A stretch of DNA of 64,000 bases from Actinomycetes bacterium (lineage in GTDB: Bacteria > Actinomycetota > Acidimicrobiia > Acidimicrobiales > Aldehydirespiratoraceae), in contig JAJRXC010000059.1 of NCBI GenBank assembly GCA_024276495.1, positions 1-64,000 on the forward strand, given 5' to 3'. The translations under genes and the position numbers were made by a program. The notes beneath the pieces were generated by a model. That model did not search any database. It saw only the letters and a program-made list of their open reading frames with translations, and was not told the origin of the DNA. This document shows, one piece after another, positions 151 through 57,240 of this stretch. How positions within the stretch are numbered: the stretch's first letter is position 1; each line of letters starts with the position of its first letter.

Positions 151-756
151 ATGTCCGAACTCCACGCCGTGCGCTCTGTCCTTCGCCGCCAGCGAGCCCA
201 CCGCTCATTCACCGATCAACTGGTGGATGAGAGTGTGATCACCGAGTTGCTCGAACTCGCCACCCGCGCCCCCAGCGCCCAGAACTCCCAACCGTGGCAG
301 TTCGTCGTCGTCCAGGAACCGGCCCGCCGCCTCGCGATCTGGCAACTGGGCGCGCGGCTCTGGGAATCCGGCGGCGCCGCCGCGTCCAAGGAGAAGCTCC
401 CGCCGACGATGTTCGACGACGTCGCTCAAGGGCTCTCCGCCGGGTTCGCCCAGGCACCGGTCACGGTCGTCGTCTGTGCCGACCACACTCGCAGCGGCCA
501 CTCGAACGCCGGATCGTCGATCTGGCCCGCGGCGCAGAACCTCATGACCGCGGCCACCGCGCACGGCCTCGGTACTGCCCTCACGACCATCTCCACGATC
601 CTGACCGACGAGCTCCGCACGATCATCGGTCTCCCCGCCACCGTCGACCCGCTCGCGGTGATTCCAATCGGCCACCCGGCCAAGGTGCTCGGTTCGTCAC
701 GGCGGGAGCCGGTGAACGAACATGCCCACCGAGAGGAGTACGGCAATGTCTGGTGA
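151..756 (+). CDS. Nitroreductase-family flavoprotein
   Basis: A 201-residue protein of the FMN-dependent nitroreductase fold. The N-terminus has the family pattern of an R-S-F segment (residues 18-20) followed by an APSAQNSQPWQF motif (about residues 40-51), which in the family contacts FMN. A GLGTALTT segment near residue 140 matches the second half of the fold. Members reduce nitro groups, quinones or enones with NAD(P)H; the substrate here is unknown. Its 3' end overlaps the next gene by 11 bp, so it probably heads the operon that continues into a SnoaL-like protein and an acyl-CoA dehydrogenase. A leaderless -10 sits directly upstream. Confidence 0.85.
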   Translation: MSELHAVRSVLRRQRAHRSFTDQLVDESVITELLELATRAPSAQNSQPWQFVVVQEPARRLAIWQLGARLWESGGAAASKEKLPPTMFDDVAQGLSAGFAQAPVTVVVCADHTRSGHSNAGSSIWPAAQNLMTAATAHGLGTALTTISTILTDELRTIIGLPATVDPLAVIPIGHPAKVLGSSRREPVNEHAHREEYGNVW

Positions 757-1159
757 AACGGCATCCGGTGAGACGACATCGGCTGAATCAGAGATACGCA
801 AGCTGCTGGCCCGGTACTGCCAGTTCCTCGACGACGGCCGCTTCGACGAGTGGATCGACCTCTTCACCGACGACATCGAATTCGTGGTGATGGGGATGCA
901 CAAGAACGGCCACGAGGAGTTGCGGGGTTTCATCGAACCCAGCCAACAGGCCGATGCCCGCGGCAAGCACATGATCAGCGAACCGTGGATCGAGATCGGA
1001 TCGACCGAGGCCGCCACCGCCACCACCGACTTCGCCTGGGTGTCGAAACAGGGCGCCATCGGCCAGAGTGGGCGCTACCACGACCGGATCGTCAACCAAA
1101 GCGGCCGGTGGCAGTTCCAGCGCCGCGAGATCGTCTTCACAGGAGACCAGCCCGAATGA
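746..1159 (+). CDS. SnoaL-like / NTF2-fold protein
   Basis: A 137-residue polypeptide with the NTF2-like helix-then-sheet pattern: an N-terminal IRKLLARYCQFLDDG helix, then WIDLFTDD and a closing GRWQFQRREIVF strand. This fold includes SnoaL-type cyclases, hydratases, and ring-hydroxylating dioxygenase small subunits. The start at 746 is preferred over an in-frame ATG at 722 because GAGAGGAG lies about 8 nt before it. The stop overlaps the start of the acyl-CoA dehydrogenase (ATGA), so the two are probably translationally coupled. The substrate is not evident. Confidence 0.75.
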   Translation: MSGETASGETTSAESEIRKLLARYCQFLDDGRFDEWIDLFTDDIEFVVMGMHKNGHEELRGFIEPSQQADARGKHMISEPWIEIGSTEAATATTDFAWVSKQGAIGQSGRYHDRIVNQSGRWQFQRREIVFTGDQPE

Positions 1160-14456: not shown

Positions 14457-14565
14457 GCGTTGAACCTAGCGGCCATGGTCGGCTTCGGATCAGGTCGTGT
14501 CCGCTCCCGCCGACCCCACAGTAGGGTTGCGGGCCAGCCCGAACCCACCCGACCCGGAGGCCACC
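14457..14565. promoter_or_regulatory. Divergent senA / selD promoter region
   Basis: This 109-bp spacer drives both halves of the selenium cluster. On the minus strand TAGGTT (14463-14468) is 6 nt before the senA ATG, which implies a leaderless mRNA. On the plus strand TAGGGT (14522-14527) lies about 38 nt before the selD ATG, and GGAGG at 14557-14560 serves as ribosome site. No obvious operator palindrome is visible. Confidence 0.5.
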
Positions 14566-15606
14566 ATGAGCGACGAAAGCACGACCCGTCTCACTCAGTT
14601 CAGCCACGGCGCCGGTTGAGGTTGCAAGCTCGCCCCCGGCGAGCTGGCGCACGTCGTGCGCCATCTGGAGACCATCGAGAGCCCCGATCTCCTGGTCGGC
14701 ACCGAGACAGGTGACGACGCCGCGGTCTGGCGCATCGACGACGAGCGGGCCCTGATCTCGACCGCCGACTTCATCACCCCGGTGGTCGACGACGCCCGCA
14801 CGTGGGGCCGGGTCGCGGCCGCCAACAGCATCTCCGACGTCTACGCGATGGGAGGGCGCCCGCTCTTCGTCCTCAACCTCGTCGGCTGGAACAGTGACGC
14901 GCTGGGCACCGAGCTCCTCGGCGAGGTCCTCCTCGGTGGCAGCGAGGTCGCCACCCGGGCCGGCGCCGTGGTCGTCGGGGGCCACACGATCGACGACCCC
15001 GAACCCAAGTACGGCATGTCGGTCACCGGAGAGGTCCACCCCGACCGCATCCTGACGAACGCCGGGCTGGAACCCGGCCAGGACCTGATCTTGTCGAAGC
15101 CGCTCGGCATCGGCATCATCACCACCGCGATCAAGGCCGACGAGGCCTCCGGCGACGTGGCCGACGGCGCGATCGAATCGATGACCCGGCTCAACGACAT
15201 CGCCTCGGCGGCGGCGGTCGCCGCCGGCGCGACCGGCTGCACCGACGTCACCGGGTTCGGGCTTCTCGGCCATCTCGGTCGCATGACCGTCGAGTCCGGG
15301 GTCGACACCACCATCGAGGTCGAGGCAACACCTTTCCTTCCTGGCGCGAAGGATCTGGCCGCCGCCGGGATGATCCCGGGTGGCACCCGTCGCAACCTCA
15401 CCTGGATCTCCGAACATCTCGATGTCGGGTCCGCCGACGAGCTCACCCAGCTCCTGTTGGCCGATGCCCAGACATCGGGTGGTCTCGTCTTCGGGGTCGA
15501 TCCCGGTGAGTCGGCGACGGTGTTGGCCGAGCTCGAGCGCACGGGGCACACCGCGGCCGTGATCGGTCGCACCGCCGATGGTTCCGGACGGGTGGTCCTG
15601 CGCTGA
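14566..15606 (+). CDS. selD: Selenide water dikinase SelD/SenC, selenocysteine-containing
   Basis: A 346-residue selenophosphate synthetase, which makes selenophosphate from selenide and ATP. The reading frame starts at ATG 14566 (GGAGG 5 nt upstream) and passes an in-frame TGA at 14617-14619 before staying open to 15606. Read as Sec, the TGA gives SHGAGUGCKLAP: Sec18 falls exactly at the catalytic Cys17 of E. coli SelD, and Lys21 matches its essential Lys20. GDDAAVW (about residue 47) is the metal/ATP Asp motif. An annotator treating TGA as stop would report only 14656-15606 and lose the active site. Diverges from senA, so it could serve both selenoneine and Sec synthesis. Confidence 0.92.
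14617..14663 (+). promoter_or_regulatory. UGA (Sec) codon followed by two hairpins, SECIS candidate
   Basis: Seven nt after the TGA lies a perfect 8-bp stem, AGCTCGCC/GGCGAGCT (14627-14634 with 14638-14645), with a CCC loop. It is followed at once by a second perfect 8-bp stem, TGGCGCAC/GTGCGCCA (14645-14652 with 14656-14663), with a GTC loop. Bacterial SECIS elements are hairpins inside the coding region just downstream of UGA. The first loop lacks the G/U residues typical of the E. coli element, so which hairpin SelB would bind is unresolved. Confidence 0.65.
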
Positions 15607-34895: not shown

Positions 34896-35507
34896 TCAGC
34901 CCAGACAGTTCCCGGCGATCCAGGTCGCGATGTTGGTCATGGCATCCAGCATGCCCAACGCCTCGGAGTTGGTCATCACCGCGGCAAGCGCCGCCGCGTC
35001 CTGCGGATCGGACAGGTTCCCCACGTTCCAATCGAACTCGGCCATCGCCGCGCCGATCACTTCGAGCCCGGCGAGCGCGGCGTCGATGTCGGCGCTCAAC
35101 TCCGGTGCCTCGGACTTGAGCGACTGCAACCCTTCCCGGTACTGATTGAAGTCCGCCTCGAGGTCGGTGCCCGGGGGAGCCCCGATCCCGCCGGATGCGA
35201 GACCACCGATCGAGGCGAACGCCGCCTCGATGTCGGCACAGCTCGTGACGGCAAGCGCCTCGGGGGGGAGGTCGGTGCTGTCCATGTCCGGGGACTCCTC
35301 GGAGGCCGCCGTCTCGTCGGATTGCGAATCGTCCGGCACCGCGGGAGCGCCCGAGTCGCCCCCACCGTCGTTCGCCACATCGCCGGACCCGGTGTCGTCG
35401 ACCACGTCCGCGAGATCCGGGCCATCGCTGCTGCACGCCGTGGCCAACAAGACAACCGCCGCCACGATCGCGAGCAAACGAACAACGAGCGTGTTCTGGT
35501 CGGACAT
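34896..35507 (-). CDS. Lipoprotein of unknown function
   Basis: A 203-residue lipoprotein. The signal peptide ends in the lipobox LATAC (Cys25). An acidic, Gly/Ser-rich linker runs to about residue 80, followed by a helical domain with two cysteines (SCADIEAAF and AGNCLG at the very end) that may be linked. GGAGGA precedes the ATG and a TAGGGT -10 sits at 35552-35557, so this gene has a normal leader, unlike many neighbours. It diverges from an acyl-CoA dehydrogenase. Confidence 0.65.
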   Translation of the reverse strand: MSDQNTLVVRLLAIVAAVVLLATACSSDGPDLADVVDDTGSGDVANDGGGDSGAPAVPDDSQSDETAASEESPDMDSTDLPPEALAVTSCADIEAAFASIGGLASGGIGAPPGTDLEADFNQYREGLQSLKSEAPELSADIDAALAGLEVIGAAMAEFDWNVGNLSDPQDAAALAAVMTNSEALGMLDAMTNIATWIAGNCLG

Positions 35508-35551
35508 GTTCTTCCTCCGCAGTCACCGCGCATCCCCTGCCGGCGATGTCG

Positions 35552-35626
35552 ACCCTAGACCCAACCACCTGACGAATCGACCCGGCAACGACTCACTTCG
35601 CCACGAACCCACTCGCCTCGTAGTAT
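35552..35626. promoter_or_regulatory. Divergent promoter pair, lipoprotein and acyl-CoA dehydrogenase
   Basis: TAGGGT on the minus strand at 35552-35557 serves the lipoprotein. TAGTAT on the plus strand at 35621-35626 is 26 nt before the dehydrogenase ATG at 35653, with AAAGGGG between them as ribosome site. Both are leadered, unlike the leaderless promoters elsewhere. Confidence 0.45.
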
Positions 35627-35652
35627 CCGAACGCGAACAAAGGGGCCCGACG

Positions 35653-36993
35653 ATGGCGATCGATTTCGGAGTCGAACCGGAATTTCAGGAGAAGCTGGAC
35701 TGGATCGAGGAGTTCGTGAAGACGGAGATCGAGCCGCTCGATCTCTATTTCCGCACCACCGTCTCTCCGTTCGACAAGGGAAACGAACTGGCCCAGGGTC
35801 TGGTCCGGCCGCTGCAGAAGAAGGTGCAGGAGAACGAGTTGTGGGCCTGTCACATCGGCCCCGAGCTCGGCGGTCGCGGCTACGGCCAGGTCAAGCTGGC
35901 GATGATGAACGAGATTCTCGGTCGTTCCTCGTGGGCCCCGTCGGTCTTCGGCTGTCAGGCCCCGGACTCGGGCAACGCGGAGATTCTCGCCCACTACGGG
36001 ACCGACGAACAAAAGGAGCGCTACCTGGCACCCTTGTTGCGCGGCGAGATCTCGACGACCTACTCGATGACGGAGCCCCAGGCCGGATCGGACCCCGCCT
36101 ACTTCACCTGTGCCGCCGTGCGGGACGGCGACGAATGGGTCATCAACGGAGAGAAGTGGTTCGCGTCGAACTACCGCTACGCCGAGTTCCTGATCGTCAT
36201 GGTCATCACGAACCCCGACGTGTCGGTCTATCAGGGGTCATCCATGATCCTGGTTCCCGCCGGCGCCGATGGCCTCGAGCTGATCCGCGACGTGCACCTC
36301 GGGGGCGGATCGTCGGGGGCCGACGCCGGCCACGCCTACCTGCGGTTCAACGACGTCCGAGTACCGGCCGAGAACCTCCTCGGCGACGAGGGCTCGGGGT
36401 TCAAGATCGCCCAGACCCGGCTCGGCGGCGGCCGCGTCCACCACGGCATGCGCTCGGTCGGGATGGCCCAGCGGGCTCTCGACATGATGTGCGAACGGGT
36501 GATCTCCCGGGAGACGAAGGGTTCGCTGATCGGTGAGAAGCAGGCGATCCAGCACTGGATCGCCGACTCCTGGATCCAGATCCAGCAGTTCCGTCTCCAG
36601 GTTCTCTACACCGCGTGGCTGATCGATCAGGAGAACGAGACCGCGGCCGAACACGGTGGGGTCGGCGACTACCGCAAGGTGCGACAACACATCGCGGGGG
36701 TGAAGGTCGCCACACCCAAAGTCCTCATCGATGTCGTCTACCGGGCGCTGCACTCGCACGGCTCGCTCGGGGTCAGCAGCGACATGCCCCTCATCGGCAT
36801 GTGGATGACCGCGCCGGTGATGGGCATCGCCGACGGCCCGACCGAGGTCCACAAGGACACCATCGCCAAGACGGTCCTGAAGGGCTACACCCCTTACGAG
36901 GGGCTCTTCCCCTCGGCCCACATCCCCACGCGGGTCGAGGAAGCCCGCTTGCACATCGAAGCGCGGATCGAGAACGAGGTCGCGAACCTGTGA
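35653..36993 (+). CDS. Acyl-CoA dehydrogenase
   Basis: A 446-residue acyl-CoA dehydrogenase, longer than the medium-chain type because of a helical extension at both ends. Landmarks are IGPELGGRGYGQVKL (about residue 70), SMTEPQAGSDPAYF (about 138), and RTRLGGGRVHHGMRSVGMAQRALD in the C-terminal helices. DGPTEVHKDTIAKTVL is where many members carry the Arg/Glu helix end. It begins a coupled operon with a MaoC-like hydratase (GTGA overlap) and a TesB-like thioesterase. Confidence 0.88.
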   Translation: MAIDFGVEPEFQEKLDWIEEFVKTEIEPLDLYFRTTVSPFDKGNELAQGLVRPLQKKVQENELWACHIGPELGGRGYGQVKLAMMNEILGRSSWAPSVFGCQAPDSGNAEILAHYGTDEQKERYLAPLLRGEISTTYSMTEPQAGSDPAYFTCAAVRDGDEWVINGEKWFASNYRYAEFLIVMVITNPDVSVYQGSSMILVPAGADGLELIRDVHLGGGSSGADAGHAYLRFNDVRVPAENLLGDEGSGFKIAQTRLGGGRVHHGMRSVGMAQRALDMMCERVISRETKGSLIGEKQAIQHWIADSWIQIQQFRLQVLYTAWLIDQENETAAEHGGVGDYRKVRQHIAGVKVATPKVLIDVVYRALHSHGSLGVSSDMPLIGMWMTAPVMGIADGPTEVHKDTIAKTVLKGYTPYEGLFPSAHIPTRVEEARLHIEARIENEVANL

Positions 36994-37991
36994 TCCCTCT
37001 CGACGGCCCGTTCTACGACCAGCTCTCCGTCGGTCAGGAGCTGCCCCGTCAACCATCGGTGACCGTCGACGACGGCATGGCGGCCCTCTACCAGGCGTGG
37101 GTCGGTGAACGTCTGCCGATGACCCTCGACGCCGACCTGACCGAAGCAGTGACCGGGCGATCGGGCCGTCTGGTCAGTCCCGGACTCGTGATGCAGCTGT
37201 CGATCGGGCAGAGCACGACCATCAGCCGCCGGGCGATCGCGAACCTCTTCTACCGCGACGTGCGACTCGTTCGCCCCGTGTTCATCGGTGACTCGGTCGC
37301 CACCGTCGTCACGGTGTCCGGGCTCGCCGACGGCTCGCACAAGGCGGGGCGGGCCCGCCGCGGCAAGGTCCTCGTCGACATCGTCACCACCGCCGCCGGC
37401 GAACCCGCGGTCGAGTACCAACGCTGCCCGATGCTGCCGCAGGCCGACGACACGGCAGCTCCCGGTCATCACGACGATCTCGGGGAAGGCGGCCCGCTCG
37501 ATCTGCGGGCCTACGCCGACCTGGTCCCCGCGTCGTGGGACTTCTCGCCGCTCGGCGCCCCGACGAGCTGGGTGATCGGTGAGACCATCGAGGATCCGAC
37601 CCGTGATGTGATCGACGGGGCGACCGGCATGGTGCGGCTCACCCACAATCTCGCGATGATCCATCGGGATGCGGAGAAGTCGCCGTATCCGGTCCGCCTC
37701 GTCTACGGAGGTCACGTGGTGGGGCTCGCCCAGGCGTCGCTCTCACGGGTGCTGCCCGGCATGGCGACCGTCGTCGGATGGCACGGCTGCGACCACACCG
37801 GGCCCGCGTTCGAAGGTGACCTCCTGTCCTTTCGGCACACGCTGCAGGACGTGGCCGCGGCGGGCAACGGTCGGGCCTTCGCGATCCGAGTCGCCGGCTT
37901 CGCCCATCGGGGCCCCGACGATCCGGGCGGCGAGAGCTCCACCGACGGCACCCCCATCCTCGATTGGACCGTCGTGGCGATCGCGCCGTGA
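36990..37991 (+). CDS. Double hot-dog MaoC-like enoyl-CoA hydratase
   Basis: A 333-residue protein with two hot-dog folds. Its second domain contains the (R)-hydratase motif: NLAMIHRDAEKSPY with YGGHVVGLAQASLSRV, in which Asp and His are the likely catalytic pair. The first domain (about residues 1-150) looks non-catalytic. Eukaryotic and actinobacterial MaoC proteins often use such asymmetric pairs for bulky acyl groups. GTG start overlaps the dehydrogenase stop, and its own stop overlaps the thioesterase start. Confidence 0.8.
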   Translation: MIPLDGPFYDQLSVGQELPRQPSVTVDDGMAALYQAWVGERLPMTLDADLTEAVTGRSGRLVSPGLVMQLSIGQSTTISRRAIANLFYRDVRLVRPVFIGDSVATVVTVSGLADGSHKAGRARRGKVLVDIVTTAAGEPAVEYQRCPMLPQADDTAAPGHHDDLGEGGPLDLRAYADLVPASWDFSPLGAPTSWVIGETIEDPTRDVIDGATGMVRLTHNLAMIHRDAEKSPYPVRLVYGGHVVGLAQASLSRVLPGMATVVGWHGCDHTGPAFEGDLLSFRHTLQDVAAAGNGRAFAIRVAGFAHRGPDDPGGESSTDGTPILDWTVVAIAP

Positions 37992-50548: not shown

Positions 50549-52030
50549 GTGACCGTCGACCCCCGAACCCCCGTTATCGTCGGTGCCGCCCAGGTCTCAC
50601 CGACGCCGCCGGGCGACGATGGTCGACGAGATGCGGCCGACCCGATCGAACTGATGGCCGGCGCGGTGAATGACGCGGCAACCGACAGCGGGGGCCGCGG
50701 AGTGCTCGCCGACATCGATGTCATCACCGTGGTCGGGGGTCTCTGGCGCTACCGGAATCCGGGCGCGCTCGTCGCTCGGGAGCTGGGTCTCGACGACGTG
50801 CACGGGATGCTCACGACCTTCGGGGGCAACATCCCGATTCACGTCGTCCACGTCATGGCCGAGCGGATCAGGGCGGGCGAGCTCGACGTCGCCGTGATCG
50901 CCGGCGGCGAGTGCAACCACACCCGGCGGCGGCTGGCCGCACGAGGCGAGAAGCCGCGTCGTCGCGCGGAGATCGACGATGCGACGGTCGAGCGCTGGGG
51001 ACCGCCGCTCGACATGGGCGACCGGGTGGCGATCGAGCGCGGCGGCGAGGTTCCCCGCAACAGCTACGCCGTCCTCGACAGCGCGATTCGGGCCGCCCGC
51101 GGAGAGTCTCTCGACGAGGCCCGCGACCGGGCCGCGAATCTCTGGGCCGGCTACGCCGACGCCGCGACCACCAACCCGCATGCCGCCGACCGCCGGGGGC
51201 TCACCGCGGCGCAGATCCGTGACCCGGCGCCCGGCAACCGCATGGTGAGCTGGCCCTACACGAAGGCGATGTGTGCCAACAACGACGTCGACCGGGCCGG
51301 GGCCGTGGTCATCTGCTCGACCGAGGCGGCCGACCGGTTCGGTGTCCCCACCGAGCGCCGCATCCACCCGCTGCGAGCCGTCACCGCGGTCGACACCACG
51401 AGCCTGCTCGAACGCGAACGAGTCCACGAGGCCGTCGGACTTCGGGCTGCCGCGGCCCGCGTCGTCGAGATCGTCGGCTCGGATCGCACCATCGATCACG
51501 TCGACCTCTACTCCTGTTTCCCGTCGATCGTCGCCCTCACGGTCGATGCGTTGGGCCTCGACCCCGGTCGCCGGTTGACGGTCGACGGAGGTCTCGCGTT
51601 CGCCGGGGCCCCGCTGAACTTCGCGGCCGGCCAGGCGCTGATCTCGATGGTCGCGACGTTGCGCGCCGACCCCGGATCGATCGGTGTCGTCCAGGGCAAC
51701 GGTGGTCACGCGGCGAAGCACGCGTTCGGGATCTACTCGACCGGCCCGCCGATCGACCCCCACGGCATCGACGAGCTCGGCAGCTTCGGCACCACCGTCG
51801 CCGTCGCCGAGCCCGAACGGGTCGGGTCGGCCACTCTCGACGGCGTCACGGTCGAGTACGGCCACGATGGCCCGGAGCGGGCGATCGCGATCGTTCGTTT
51901 CGAAGACGGCGCCCGCAGCTGGGCGACGAGTCCCGACCCCGTTCTCATGCATCTGTTCACCACCGAGGAGATGGTCGGCCGACGAGTGCACGTCGATGCG
52001 GGCGAGATGACCGCCGCTCAGCCGACGTAG
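50549..52030 (+). CDS. Thiolase-fold protein (SCP2-thiolase-like, non-canonical)
   Basis: A 493-residue thiolase-fold protein. The N-terminal RTPVIVGAAQVSP and AVIAGGECNHTRR segments align with the thiolase fold, and VQGNGGHAAKHAFGIYST corresponds to the C-terminal His loop. The usual nucleophile Cys motif is not clearly preserved, so it may be a lipid-transfer or degenerate condensing enzyme. The C-terminus (after about 400) is an extra beta domain. It starts at GTG 50549 with a leaderless-type -10, and overlaps the convergent GGDEF-EAL gene by 13 bp. Confidence 0.75.
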   Translation: MTVDPRTPVIVGAAQVSPTPPGDDGRRDAADPIELMAGAVNDAATDSGGRGVLADIDVITVVGGLWRYRNPGALVARELGLDDVHGMLTTFGGNIPIHVVHVMAERIRAGELDVAVIAGGECNHTRRRLAARGEKPRRRAEIDDATVERWGPPLDMGDRVAIERGGEVPRNSYAVLDSAIRAARGESLDEARDRAANLWAGYADAATTNPHAADRRGLTAAQIRDPAPGNRMVSWPYTKAMCANNDVDRAGAVVICSTEAADRFGVPTERRIHPLRAVTAVDTTSLLERERVHEAVGLRAAAARVVEIVGSDRTIDHVDLYSCFPSIVALTVDALGLDPGRRLTVDGGLAFAGAPLNFAAGQALISMVATLRADPGSIGVVQGNGGHAAKHAFGIYSTGPPIDPHGIDELGSFGTTVAVAEPERVGSATLDGVTVEYGHDGPERAIAIVRFEDGARSWATSPDPVLMHLFTTEEMVGRRVHVDAGEMTAAQPT

Positions 52031-55000
52031 CCGACCAACAGCTCGCGCAGCGCCTCGGGCGGTCCCGGTTTGGCGAAGAGGAAGCCCTGGGCTCGGTGAC
52101 AGCCGAGCTCCACGAGCATCTCCGCCTGCAGCTGGGTCTCGACCCCTTCGGCGACCACTCCGAGCCCGAGCGCATCGGCCAGCGACACGATCGACCTCAC
52201 GAAGGCCACGTCCTCGGGATCGTGACCGAGATCGTTGACGAACGACCGGTCGATCTTCAAGGCATCGACCGGGAACCGTTTGAGATAGGCGAGCGAGCTG
52301 AAACCCGTCCCGAAGTCGTCGACCGCGAGGTGGACCCCCAGCTTCTTGAGCCGATGGAGGATCTCCTCGGACCGGTTGACGTCGTTCATGACCGCCGACT
52401 CGGTGATCTCGAGACAGAGGCGCCGGGGGGCGAGCCGTGTCTCCGCCAACACCGATCGGACCAGCGAAACGGTCTCCTCGCGCTGAAGTTGGGCCGCCGC
52501 CAGGTTGACCCGAACGACCGGGCCGGCATCGCCCCCGGGCCATCGGGCGGCCTCACGGCAGGCTTCGGCCAGCACGAGCTCGCCCATCTCGACGATCAGG
52601 CCCGTCTCCTCGGCGACCTCGATGAACGCGCCGGCCGCGAGCAGGCCGTTCTCGGGGTGTTGCCACCGCACCAGCGCCTCGGCGCCCAGGATCCGACCGT
52701 CGTGGAGGGACACCTCAGGTTGGTAGTGGACCAGGAGCTCGTCGCTACGAAGGGCACCACGGAGCCCCGACTCGGTCGCCATGCGGGCGGTGACGGCCTC
52801 CTGGAGCTCCTCGTCGAACGACTCGGCCCGGGCCCGGCCCTGGGCCTTGGCCCGGTACATCGCGGTGTCGGCCCGACGAATCAGATCGTCGACCGCGGCC
52901 CGGTCGTTGGCCACCGCGATGCCGATGCTGACAGTCGGATAGATCTTCTGGCTACCCAGGGTGACCGGCTCGCCGATCAACCGCATGAGCCGTTCCGCGA
53001 CGAACTCCGCCTCCGTGACCACCACCGGTCCGGGAAGGACGACCGCGAACTCGTCGCCACCGAGCCGGGCCACGAGATCCCCGGGGCGAACGGCGAGCCG
53101 AAGTCGATCAGCAACGACGACGAGCAGTTCGTCACCCCGATCGTGGCCGAGTGAGTCGTTGATGTTCTTGAATCGGTCGAGGTCGAGCAACAACACCGCG
53201 AGGGAGTCCGAATCGTCCGCGATGCGATCGATCTCATCGAGCAGGCGGCGTCGGTTCGCGAGGCCGGTCAGCTCGTCGTGCGACGCCTGAAAGCGCAGAA
53301 GCTGTTCGGCTCGACGTCGTTCCGTGACGTCCTCGATGTGGATCAGCCAGAACTCCTCCCCCCGGTGGCCCTCGACGAGTGAACCTCTCATCTGCCCCCA
53401 GACGCGGCCTCCTCCGGGTCCGCGGAACGCCGCCTCCGCGGTGAACTGTCCGTCGGGGGCCGTGGCCCACTCGACCGAGCCGGGCGCATCGTCGTAGACG
53501 AACTGCGGCGGGGTGCCGATCAACTCGTCGACCGACTCGGCGCCGACGAACTCGACGAAGGCCCGGTTGCAGGTGATCAGGTTCAGTGCCTCGTCGCGCA
53601 GCACGACTCCGATGGGCGCGCTCTCGAAGGCGGCCTCGGCATAACGCTGGGCCGCCACCCGCACGTCGGCTTCCTGGATCATCTGGCTCAACGATTCGAG
53701 CAACTCGACCGTCTCCTCGGGCCAGTCCCCGGGTCGTAGCGTGCCGGCGACGAGGATGTGGTCGGTCCGATCCGTGCCCCGGGGAACGGCCAGCAGACAG
53801 GGTTCGCGCAGGGTCGGGGAGTCGCTCACCCGAGCGGTCGTCTCACCGGTGGCCCGAACCTCGTCGAAGAGCTCACGGGCACCGAACTCGATGTCCTCGG
53901 CGAACTCGAACTCCTGATGGTCCGGGCGGATCCATCGGCTCGAATTGATGTAGCGGGAGTTGCGGTGGTCGACCTGCCAGCCACCGATCCCCTCGAGGCC
54001 ACAGAAGACCGCAGCGGCGGCCAGCACCGACTCGATCACCGCCTCGCTGTCCTCCGGGGTCGCCTCGGCCAGCTCCGCCGCACATTCGCTGAGCAGTCGC
54101 TGCGCCTCCAGGCGGCCAAGGCCCCGGCGCTCCTCGGCGATGCGGCCACGAAGCTGACCCATCATCACCGAAAGGGCCCGGAAGGCCTCCAGCTCGTGGT
54201 CGGCGAACGCCCGCCGCGCGACGAACGCCAACGCGGCGTCGGCGTGACCCCCGACGAAGACGGGGAACACCGTGCTCGACACGTCGGAACCCCACGCGCG
54301 CCGGGTGACCTCGGTCCACTTCTCGTCGGCCACGCCCCGCTGGAAGGCCTCCTTGTCCTTGGCTCGTGGCCCGGCCGGGAGCGCGATGGTGTCGCCCGGC
54401 TTCGGTCGCGGCCTCCCGGCCGGAGCCCACGCGGCCTCGACGATGCTCTCGGTGGCGCCGAGACCCCGAACCGCGACCCCATCGAGATCGAGCTGTGTTC
54501 CGATCCGTTCGACTGCCTCGTCGACGACCGCGTCGACGGTTTCCAGTGTCGCCCCCAAGAACCCGTCCGCCAGCTGAGAGATCAGCTCGTCGATCGCCAG
54601 TCGGGCGTTGATCTCCTCCTCGGCCCGGAGTCGGACGTTGAGTTGACCGATGAGGTCCGCGGCCGCGTTCGCGAGGTCACGCGGCGCTTCGAGGTCGCCC
54701 CGGGGTCCATTGGCCCAGATGAAGGTGAGGGCCGACGGCGGGAGGCCAGCGCCCCGAATCGGCGCGACGATCGAGGTCCACATCCCGTCGTCGCTGTCCC
54801 GCAGGAGAGGGGCCAGCTCCGGACTCGACGCCCGAACGTGGGTCTCGGTCTCGGTGGCCATCATCTCATCGATGAGGCCGAGCGCGTTCCGGTTCATCGT
54901 CGTACCGACGTCGACCGCCAGATCCCCGGAACGGGACCAGGAATCGACGATCGTGACGGTCTCGTGGTCGGCTTCGATCGCCGCGATCAACACGAGGTCG

Positions 55001-56181
55001 GCGCCCAGATGGGTCCCCATCCGTTCGAGGGTCGAGTGAATCGCCTCCGTCGCATCCGCCGCGCTCGCTTCGAGGAAGACCTTGCCGGTCGCGGCCAAGG
55101 CCCGTTGCCCGTCGAGGCGTTCCGCCGATGACCGTTCGGCGGCGACGCGACCCCGCGTCTGGGCGACCAGCGACGCCAGCGTCGACAAGGCGTCGAACTC
55201 CTGGGGGAGCCAGCTGTCGGCCCCGATCCGGGTGACCGCAACGAGCGCATCGCCGTCGGTCACCGAAGCCGGGAGAAGGGCGACCGTGCGGGGCGGGTCG
55301 CGGAGCTCGAGCGCGTCGCTGACCTCCGGTCCCATGATCGCGTCGACGATGTCGGCGACGTCGACGACCCGCGGTTCGCTGGTGAACTCCCGCAAGGTGA
55401 GGTTCTCGGCCCCGGGGATGCCCGACACGTCCGGAACGGAGAGCGTTCTCAGTTCGGCGGGGAGTCCCCGTTCGGCGACCATGTGGGGCAGCGCGATGGT
55501 CTCGTCGTCGATCACGTCGATCAACACCACGGCATCGGCGCCGACGATCTCCCTCATCTGTTCGAGGGCACGGTCCACCTCCGCGTCGAGGGTCTCCGGC
55601 GACACCGACTGGAGCCGCGCCGCGAGCGTGACGGTCAGATCGTCGAGTCGGTGGCGTTCGGACAACCGACGCTCGGCGACGACTCGCCGGTTGAACTGAC
55701 GCAAAAGGAGAACGAATCCCCGCACCAGCGCGAGATCGGATTCGTACCAGACGTGTCGGGCCGAACCGATCACCAAGACGGTTGTCTCGTCGGTGGTGCG
55801 GTGGATCACCGCGACGACCGCCATCCCGCCGGTCCATCCGCGCGCCTCGCACAATTCGGCGCCGACGACGAGCTCGAGCGGAACGATCCCGATCCCGTCA
55901 CCGGCCGCGACGACGTCGGCCACCGCCGGGTCGGCGGCCACGACGTCCTCGGTGGCGAGCTCCGAGGACGCGTCGAGCGACCAGCGGTGCTCGTTCGTCG
56001 CCACCGCCGTGTGGTTGTCGACTCGCCAGACACTGGCCGCCGTACCGTCGACGAGTCGGGCCACCCGTTCCATGGAGGCTTCGATGACCGCCGATGCCGT
56101 GTCGGCGGTGGCGTCGACGAAGCGGGCGCCCAGCTCCCACAGGATGTCCTGTGGTGTCCACGAACGCGACGGGTCACTCAT
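52018..56181 (-). CDS. Large sensor with five GAF-like repeats, PAS, GGDEF and EAL
   Basis: A 1387-residue signalling protein. Five repeats of about 160-180 residues share a helix-sheet pattern resembling GAF domains, each opening with a helix like LGARFVDATADTASAVIEAS or TVTLAARLQSVSPETLDAEV. Then follow a PAS domain (about 870-980, ESAPIGVVLRDEALNLITCN), GGDEF (RLGGDEFAVVL near 1060, intact) and EAL (AEALVRWQHPENG near 1180, with VDDFGTGFSSLAYLKRFP). It probably senses several signals and sets c-di-GMP. No membrane segment was seen, so it is cytosolic. The next gene on the strand is the redoxin selenoprotein, 42 bp upstream. Confidence 0.85.
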   Translation of the reverse strand: MSDPSRSWTPQDILWELGARFVDATADTASAVIEASMERVARLVDGTAASVWRVDNHTAVATNEHRWSLDASSELATEDVVAADPAVADVVAAGDGIGIVPLELVVGAELCEARGWTGGMAVVAVIHRTTDETTVLVIGSARHVWYESDLALVRGFVLLLRQFNRRVVAERRLSERHRLDDLTVTLAARLQSVSPETLDAEVDRALEQMREIVGADAVVLIDVIDDETIALPHMVAERGLPAELRTLSVPDVSGIPGAENLTLREFTSEPRVVDVADIVDAIMGPEVSDALELRDPPRTVALLPASVTDGDALVAVTRIGADSWLPQEFDALSTLASLVAQTRGRVAAERSSAERLDGQRALAATGKVFLEASAADATEAIHSTLERMGTHLGADLVLIAAIEADHETVTIVDSWSRSGDLAVDVGTTMNRNALGLIDEMMATETETHVRASSPELAPLLRDSDDGMWTSIVAPIRGAGLPPSALTFIWANGPRGDLEAPRDLANAAADLIGQLNVRLRAEEEINARLAIDELISQLADGFLGATLETVDAVVDEAVERIGTQLDLDGVAVRGLGATESIVEAAWAPAGRPRPKPGDTIALPAGPRAKDKEAFQRGVADEKWTEVTRRAWGSDVSSTVFPVFVGGHADAALAFVARRAFADHELEAFRALSVMMGQLRGRIAEERRGLGRLEAQRLLSECAAELAEATPEDSEAVIESVLAAAAVFCGLEGIGGWQVDHRNSRYINSSRWIRPDHQEFEFAEDIEFGARELFDEVRATGETTARVSDSPTLREPCLLAVPRGTDRTDHILVAGTLRPGDWPEETVELLESLSQMIQEADVRVAAQRYAEAAFESAPIGVVLRDEALNLITCNRAFVEFVGAESVDELIGTPPQFVYDDAPGSVEWATAPDGQFTAEAAFRGPGGGRVWGQMRGSLVEGHRGEEFWLIHIEDVTERRRAEQLLRFQASHDELTGLANRRRLLDEIDRIADDSDSLAVLLLDLDRFKNINDSLGHDRGDELLVVVADRLRLAVRPGDLVARLGGDEFAVVLPGPVVVTEAEFVAERLMRLIGEPVTLGSQKIYPTVSIGIAVANDRAAVDDLIRRADTAMYRAKAQGRARAESFDEELQEAVTARMATESGLRGALRSDELLVHYQPEVSLHDGRILGAEALVRWQHPENGLLAAGAFIEVAEETGLIVEMGELVLAEACREAARWPGGDAGPVVRVNLAAAQLQREETVSLVRSVLAETRLAPRRLCLEITESAVMNDVNRSEEILHRLKKLGVHLAVDDFGTGFSSLAYLKRFPVDALKIDRSFVNDLGHDPEDVAFVRSIVSLADALGLGVVAEGVETQLQAEMLVELGCHRAQGFLFAKPGPPEALRELLVGYVG

Positions 56182-56223: not shown

Positions 56224-57240
56224 TCAGCTCCGGGGAACGCCATGGTACGGGCTCCCCGCCGCCTGCCATTCACCGTACAGTTCGAAGAAGGCGTCGCCGA
56301 ACGGATCCACGTCGCGTAGGGGCATCGCCGCCCGTCGAACGGTGAAGTCCATAGGGGCGAGCCGGGCAGCCCGATCGAACCAGGTGCCGGCGCGCTCCTC
56401 GTCGCCGATCCGCCGCAGATGGGCGGCGATGCGAAAGGCCAGTCGCGCCTGGACCTCGTCGGGTTCGAGATCGGCGACGGCGTAGTCGGCATCGGCGGGA
56501 ACGACCCCGTCGCGGACCCACGCCCGGATCTGGTCCATGTGCTCGTCCGGTCGGACTCCGGTGAAATCGACGAACATGTCGGTGCCGACCTCCGCCGAGT
56601 TCGGTCGGGCGATGGTGCCATCGGCATCGATCCAGACGACCGTCGGGACGTTGCTGATCGCGTAGAGCTCCGCCAGGACGTGGTCCCGGTCGAGCAGCAC
56701 CGGGAAGCTGATCCCCTCCGCGAACTCACGGACGTCGTCGGCAGATTCGTCGAGCGCGACCGCGATCACCATGAAACCATCGTCGGCGAGCTCGTCGTGC
56801 AGTGCCTGCCACCCGGGCAGGTCGTAACGGCAACCTCACCAACTGGCGAAGGCGACGAGCAGTCTCTTGCGATCCTTGAACTCTTCGAGTGAGTGTGTGG
56901 TGCCGTCGAGGTCGGGGAGGACGAAATCGGCCGCCATCCGGCCCGACAGCGTGCGACTGCGCGCGCCGGCGGGAACGCTGATCGCCGCGACGAGGGGTTC
57001 CTCGGAGACGAGCGTGGTCAGGCCGAGCAGCTCAGCCGCCGCGATCAGGTCGACCCGATCACCGTGGCGCAGCGCCGCGTGGTCCCGCACGGGCACACAC
57101 ACGTCGCCGCGACACAACCCCTCGGGCTTCAGCTCCCAGCCGAGCACCACCGACACGTCGGCCGGGTCGACGAGCAGCGACTCACCCTCCCGGGCCGCGT
57201 CGACCGTCGAGGAACCGCCGGGGGTGAGTACGGTCAACAT
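56224..57240 (-). CDS. Thioredoxin-fold redoxin with selenocysteine (TlpA/ResA-like)
   Basis: A 338-residue protein read through an in-frame TGA at 56836-56838. With the TGA as stop there would be an unconnected 134-residue piece (56836-57240) and a 182-residue piece (56224-56772). Read as Sec135, the frame gives LLVAFASWUGCRYDLPGW, a thioredoxin-fold active site (Sec-Gly-Cys, Cys137) followed by a cis-Pro loop SNVPTVVWID. An N-terminal domain (residues 25-60, LGWELKPEGLCRGDVCVPV, Cys43 and Cys48) precedes the redoxin, and a helical C-terminal region follows. No signal peptide. Likely a peroxide- or disulfide-reducing enzyme. Confidence 0.83.
56805..56838 (-). promoter_or_regulatory. UGA (Sec) codon and SECIS-like hairpin of the redoxin
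   Basis: On the minus strand TGA (56838-56836) is followed after 14 nt by a perfect 6-bp stem, CCTGCC/GGCAGG (56821-56816 with 56810-56805), with a CGGGT loop. A small hairpin with G and U in its loop at this distance is the layout of the E. coli SECIS element. This is the better of the two SECIS candidates in the window. Confidence 0.68.

Follow-up and report, generated by a model that had tools for sequence, protein, structure and literature searches.

A three-domain ResA-like protein with a predicted selenocysteine and a conserved Cys-x4-Cys pair in an Acidimicrobiia genome

Results

The gene and its reading frame

The window, the whole stretch of 64,000 nucleotides that was analysed, carries a coding sequence on the minus strand at 57240-56224, with an ATG start at 57240 and a TGA stop at 56226-56224; the strand was absent from the earlier note. 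When read with table 11, the gene falls into two pieces, one at 57240-56836 and another, shorter open frame that ends at 56224, and a standard annotation pipeline would call it as two fragments. With the in-frame TGA (56838-56836) read as selenocysteine (Sec), positions 57240-56227 give one chain of 338 residues with Sec135, followed directly by the stop. Both the translation and continuous homologues bear out the earlier proposal that the two same-frame pieces join across the TGA into a single 338-residue protein, and homologue alignments run from residue 1-2 to residue 337-338 of the window protein. The same translation has Cys43 and Cys48 where they had been placed, the Sec-Gly-Cys active site within the motif FASWUGCRYDLP, and the cis-Pro loop as NVPT (Pro199).

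The gene is flanked downstream by a GAF/PAS/GGDEF/EAL protein and on the other side by a divergent enoyl-CoA hydratase. The former has 1387 residues (52018-56181, minus strand) and starts 42 bases after the selenoprotein stop. Frames of 80 codons or more near the gene in the window and in 109 relatives were compared all against all, and no constant neighbour was found; the most widespread cluster of neighbours is present at 23 of the 110 loci, with either orientation and at differing distances. Gene context gives no substrate lead. Searches of plasmids and phages matched 48 and 3 records, respectively, none covering 80% of the query, and among the matches listed (20 plasmid, 3 phage) these are redoxin-domain matches with about 26-36% identity.

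The in-frame TGA as selenocysteine

From the contigs of GTDB genomes, the best 80 of 106 relatives were taken. Among 296 genomes of the window's class that were searched, 253 had matches, many of them only general redoxins, and 50, including the window's own, had a match at E 1e-70 or better. The alignment has 110 rows, the window's included, out of 118 loci, the other eight being tRNA-Sec candidates. At position 135 the codon is TGA in 92 of the 110 rows and TGC or TGT in the remaining 18, with no other codon or residue, while Gly136 and Cys137 are present in every row. Counting only sequences that are distinct over 120 nt of DNA leaves 86 with TGA and 17 with Cys, so that a search for homologues with Cys in place of Sec, as the earlier note had suggested, does find them.

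The in-frame TGA almost certainly encodes selenocysteine, judging from these homologues, and the gene would thus be that of a real selenoprotein. Table 11 does give a stop at this codon, and a real stop, a sequencing error or a pseudogene lesion would leave a protein of 134 residues; however, TGA recurs at the same codon throughout the distinct sequences, alternates with Cys, and has continuous homology on both sides, which makes this reading highly implausible. The homologues are one continuous protein, and the possibility raised earlier, that the TGA is a genuine stop or that the pieces belong to different proteins, was not borne out. Reassignment of TGA to Trp in this organism has the open frame in its favour and no other support. 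It is equally hard to credit, in that Trp occurs at position 135 in none of the 110 rows, the gene itself ends with TGA where its homologues end, and the genome has a tRNA-Sec with anticodon TCA.

A putative SECIS hairpin

The earlier note had described a SECIS-like hairpin after the TGA, and it exists as sequence at 56805-56821 on the minus strand: CCUGCC-CGGGU-GGCAGG, a stem of 6 bp with a 5-nt loop (CGGGU), starting 14 nt after the TGA codon and with its loop 20 nt after it. As set out in the accessible text of PMC13188914, the bSECIS model has a loop of 3-9 nt, a stem of 4-16 bp, G in the first two loop positions, a spacing of 16-37 nt, and a minimum free energy of at most -7.5 kcal/mol. 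The window hairpin fits this model in loop (5 nt, with G at the second place), stem (6 bp), spacing (20 nt) and energy (-10.4 kcal/mol over 23 nt). The minimal hairpins of 76 of the 86 distinct Sec genes reach the limit of -7.5 kcal/mol, and those of the other 10 are weaker. No Rfam match was found at the hairpin.

All 86 distinct Sec genes have standard pairing at the five inner positions of the stem, versus 11 of the 17 in the Cys set (Fisher P 8.7e-6), although P values for the SECIS are rough because the counts share ancestry. In every one of the 86 Sec genes, the second nucleotide of the loop is G and the third is G or U. When sequences distinct over 42 nt are compared (80 in all), three of the six stem pairs are invariant and the other three have changes on both sides, compared with an average of 0.9 such pairs in shuffles and none of 500 shuffles reaching three; the outermost pair fails to form in 21 of the 80. 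In the set of Cys genes, none of the pairs has changed on both sides. Leu141, which lies in the stem, is never encoded by CTC in the 86 Sec genes, whereas of the 2575 Leu codons in the rest of these genes 1065 are CTC. This synonymous choice is the strongest single sign of the putative SECIS element.

The protein motif LPxWQ also constrains much of the stem, which is retained in 11 of 17 Cys genes. Folding over 81 nt gives only a moderate advantage over shuffled sequence (z -2.1; 8 of 200 shuffles do as well). Folding energy was rejected as a test for the SECIS, since the 38-nt mean is -11.65 in Sec genes and -11.62 in Cys genes; over 60 nt, Cys genes fold more stably than Sec genes. It is the comparison of homologues, not folding energy, that makes the predicted hairpin convincing.

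Selenocysteine machinery and the distribution of Sec and Cys forms

The earlier note had proposed a check for selA, selB and selC, and all three are in the genome, as is selD. The tRNA-Sec (selC) has anticodon TCA and lies at 69528-69619 of contig C79; selB scores 275 bits (cut-off 242) and selA 395 bits (cut-off 268). The selB and selA genes adjoin at 34957-37172 of the contig that also carries the tRNA-Sec. The selD gene is in the window itself, at 14587-15504 within 14497-15570 on the plus strand, with 375 bits to TIGR00476. Its product, SelD (selenide, water dikinase), is also in the Sec form, with an in-frame TGA in GAGUGCKL, and is probably what the earlier note had counted as the first selenoprotein of the window.

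Across the 50 genomes with strong full-length matches, selA was detected in 39 of the 41 that have the TGA form versus 1 of the 9 that lack it (P 7e-7). The two TGA-form genomes in which selA was not detected are 70% and 79% complete. The nine genomes without the TGA form comprise six with Cys at the codon level and three (G110, G146 and G206) known only as having no stop inside the gene; G162 is the one no-stop genome with selA. In a quick unrooted tree built on 96 rows, Sec forms are intermixed with Cys forms, with 7 changes, at least 5 of them on well-supported branches, and a group of 18 rows containing the most distant relatives is all Sec. This pattern suggests repeated replacement of Sec by Cys, as far as an unrooted tree can indicate direction. 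The family spans several bacterial phyla by the names of metagenome-bin records, some of which are doubtful. With the two forms interleaved in this way, the family supplies natural pairs of Sec and Cys proteins in which to ask what advantage selenium confers.

Domain layout

The protein has only four Cys or Sec residues (43, 48, 135 and 137), all of them conserved. An AlphaFold2 model built with 59 sequences has a mean pLDDT of 95.1 and, together with conservation and family matches, divides the chain into three parts: an N-terminal domain (residues 1-94; 56959-57240, minus strand), a redoxin domain of the ResA/TlpA fold (about residues 100-214; 56599-56943, minus strand), and a helical C-terminal domain (about residues 215-338, 124 residues; 56227-56598, minus strand). 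The C-terminal domain, helical in the model, is weakly TPR-like, and its match to TPR_2 (E 0.16) is not significant.

The redoxin domain matches PF00578 with 61.3 bits (cut-off 26), and PF08534 Redoxin is also above its cut-off. Its main residues are Trp134-Sec135-Gly136-Cys137, Asp140 and cis-Pro199. About residues 97-244 of the model match ResA and TlpA-type chains with Z of 12-16; for the ResA chain 1st9_A, Z is 15.1 and rmsd 2.1 over 133 aligned residues, which places the domain in the ResA-type fold. At Cys137+3, which we take to be the position of Glu80 in ResA numbering, D or E is present in 109 of 110 rows. A second ResA-like protein with an in-frame TGA is encoded elsewhere in the genome (contig C105, locus L147, about 280-860, plus strand); its motif is HTWUAAC (UxxC) and lies behind a hydrophobic N-terminal segment, as in a membrane-anchored counterpart.

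The N-terminal domain is predicted to be beta-rich with confidence (pLDDT 91.9 over 94 residues) and has invariant Trp35, Gly41, Cys43 and Cys48. The Cys43-x4-Cys48 pair (57097-57114, minus strand) is conserved in 109 and 108 of 110 rows, respectively, the rest being gaps. No Pfam match was found for this domain; its profile against PDB sequences returned one chance-level 31-residue peptide (E 0.92), and Foldseek returned nothing under E 0.8. By VIA, the highest Z was 5.7, to 5h3k, and the N-terminal domain of the usher Caf1A (FimD/usher) gave Z 5.6 and rmsd 2.9 over 76 aligned residues, below the level separating kin from chance. A likeness to the N-terminal repeats of copper amine oxidase was considered, and no search match bore it out. 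The lack of a match does not by itself show a new fold. No description of the domain was found in the open-access literature.

In 246 genomes of the phylum, the N-terminal domain occurs in 13 genomes at 17 places, and at 15 of these a UGC, CGC or UTC redoxin follows in frame; of the other two, one is at a contig end and one is frame-shifted. One distant relative (L146; genome G429, contig C2) has the N-terminal domain with a Cys pair one residue wider and WASWUTC in place of the UGC motif. Carrying a second candidate redox pair and having neither a Pfam model nor a clear relative of solved structure, the N-terminal domain merits structure determination.

Discussion

Proposed function and alternatives

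The protein is probably a selenol-disulfide oxidoreductase of the cytosol, with electrons passing between the Cys43/Cys48 pair and Sec135/Cys137. Its identity as a selenoprotein, its fold, and the conservation of exactly two redox pairs are well supported; we infer the relay, the direction of electron flow and the role of the C-terminal domain. In the proposed mechanism, the downstream hairpin within the gene would direct SelB and tRNA-Sec to read the TGA at 56838 as Sec135. Sec135 would take the place of the attacking Cys of ResA-type proteins with Cys137 as its partner, so the working couple would be a U-x-C selenenylsulfide/selenolthiol. Sec135 would attack a substrate disulfide or an oxidised thiol and Cys137 would resolve the product, while Cys43-x4-Cys48 would exchange electrons with the Sec/Cys pair of the same chain, as a relay or as a regenerating site. 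This exchange is proposed because the two pairs are conserved and the fusion is constant. The helical C-terminal domain may dock a partner.

A further picture, which we offer tentatively and consider somewhat doubtful as a whole, is that of a self-contained selenol relay. The Sec-x-Cys of the cytosolic redoxin would be fed by way of an N-terminal domain that is so far undescribed, has an invariant Cys-x4-Cys, is found only fused to this redoxin and would represent a new redox fold, and LPxWQ, which follows the Sec, would serve both as protein and as SECIS RNA, persisting in lineages with Cys and without selA.

The scores above cut-off for PF00578 (AhpC-TSA) and PF08534 (Redoxin) would also suit a selenol peroxidase of the AhpC/TSA (peroxiredoxin) type, with Sec135 as the peroxidatic residue and either Cys137 or the N-terminal pair resolving, and Sec is favoured in peroxidases. 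The peroxidatic motif of peroxiredoxins is PxxxT/SxxC, however, and it is absent here: in place of the expected Pro, position 128 has Leu in 105 of 110 rows, and at position 132 there are 69 rows with Ala and 41 with Ser. Beyond NF041054, ResA, StoA and TlpA are the families that match best, and by fold the top matches are to ResA and TlpA-like chains. For want of the peroxidatic motif, a peroxiredoxin is the less likely reading, and we regard it as unlikely. The small beta-rich domain has no known fold match, and its invariant Cys pair, at an x4 spacing that is unusual for a redox pair, could instead be a metal or metalloid site, from which a metal(loid) thiolate would be passed to the selenolate rather than electrons being relayed. 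No conserved His or further Cys accompanies the pair in the N-terminal domain, however, and no match to a metal-handling family was found, so that such a site seems rather improbable.

Comparison with known systems

The oxidoreductase proposed here shares its fold, its cis-Pro and an acidic residue near the active site with ResA, TlpA and CcmG. Those proteins are extracytoplasmic and have a CxxC active site, and ResA has an N-terminal membrane anchor. In contrast, the window protein has U-G-C (C-G-C in the Cys forms), which is one residue shorter than the C-x-x-C of ResA, and two extra domains. No hydrophobic anchor was found in it, the best mean hydropathy over 19 residues being 1.46, and 0.78 near the N-terminus.

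The earlier note knew of no standard name for this domain combination, but one exists: NCBIfam NF041054 (WAxxUGC_long), 'ResA-like WAxxUGC motif-containing protein', has the same three-part layout, and the N-terminal, redoxin and C-terminal parts all match it. The whole protein scores 203.1 bits, below the cut-off of 300, with 40.8 bits for the N-terminal part and 31.8 bits for the C-terminal part. The W-A-x-x-U-G-C motif of that family differs from the F-A-S-W-U-G-C of the window protein, which has Phe at position 131; Trp occupies this position in 38 of 110 rows. Ten relatives were scored on NF041054, and the three that pass (L069, L081 and L088) sit in the separate group of 18 rows in the tree; seven fail. 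The window protein falls in a subgroup with FxxWUGC that is found mainly in Acidimicrobiia, by the names of metagenome bins, some of which are doubtful. The names WAxxUGC and NF041054 were not found in the open-access literature, and titles and abstract openings of open-access papers on Acidimicrobi- selenoproteins held nothing on this protein.

UGC-type Prx-like or TlpA-like selenoproteins have been in print since 2008. In the portions of these sources that were available, a 'Prx-like (UGC-containing)' selenoprotein with 46 Sec sequences is reported from the Global Ocean Sampling survey (PMC2398784), and reviews list a 'UGC-containing Prx-like protein' (PMC9312934) and a 'UGC-containing TlpA disulfide reductase family protein' (PMC13188914). 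Compared by the descriptions in those portions only, these proteins are presented without an N-terminal Cys-x4-Cys domain, and they have in common with the window protein a PF00578/TlpA-type redoxin, the UGC motif and the occurrence of both Sec and Cys forms. The window protein, with its PF00578 domain and U-G-C motif, is of the same general type. Given its match to NF041054 below the cut-off and the UGC types already in print, the window protein would therefore come from a sister subgroup of already predicted selenoproteins.
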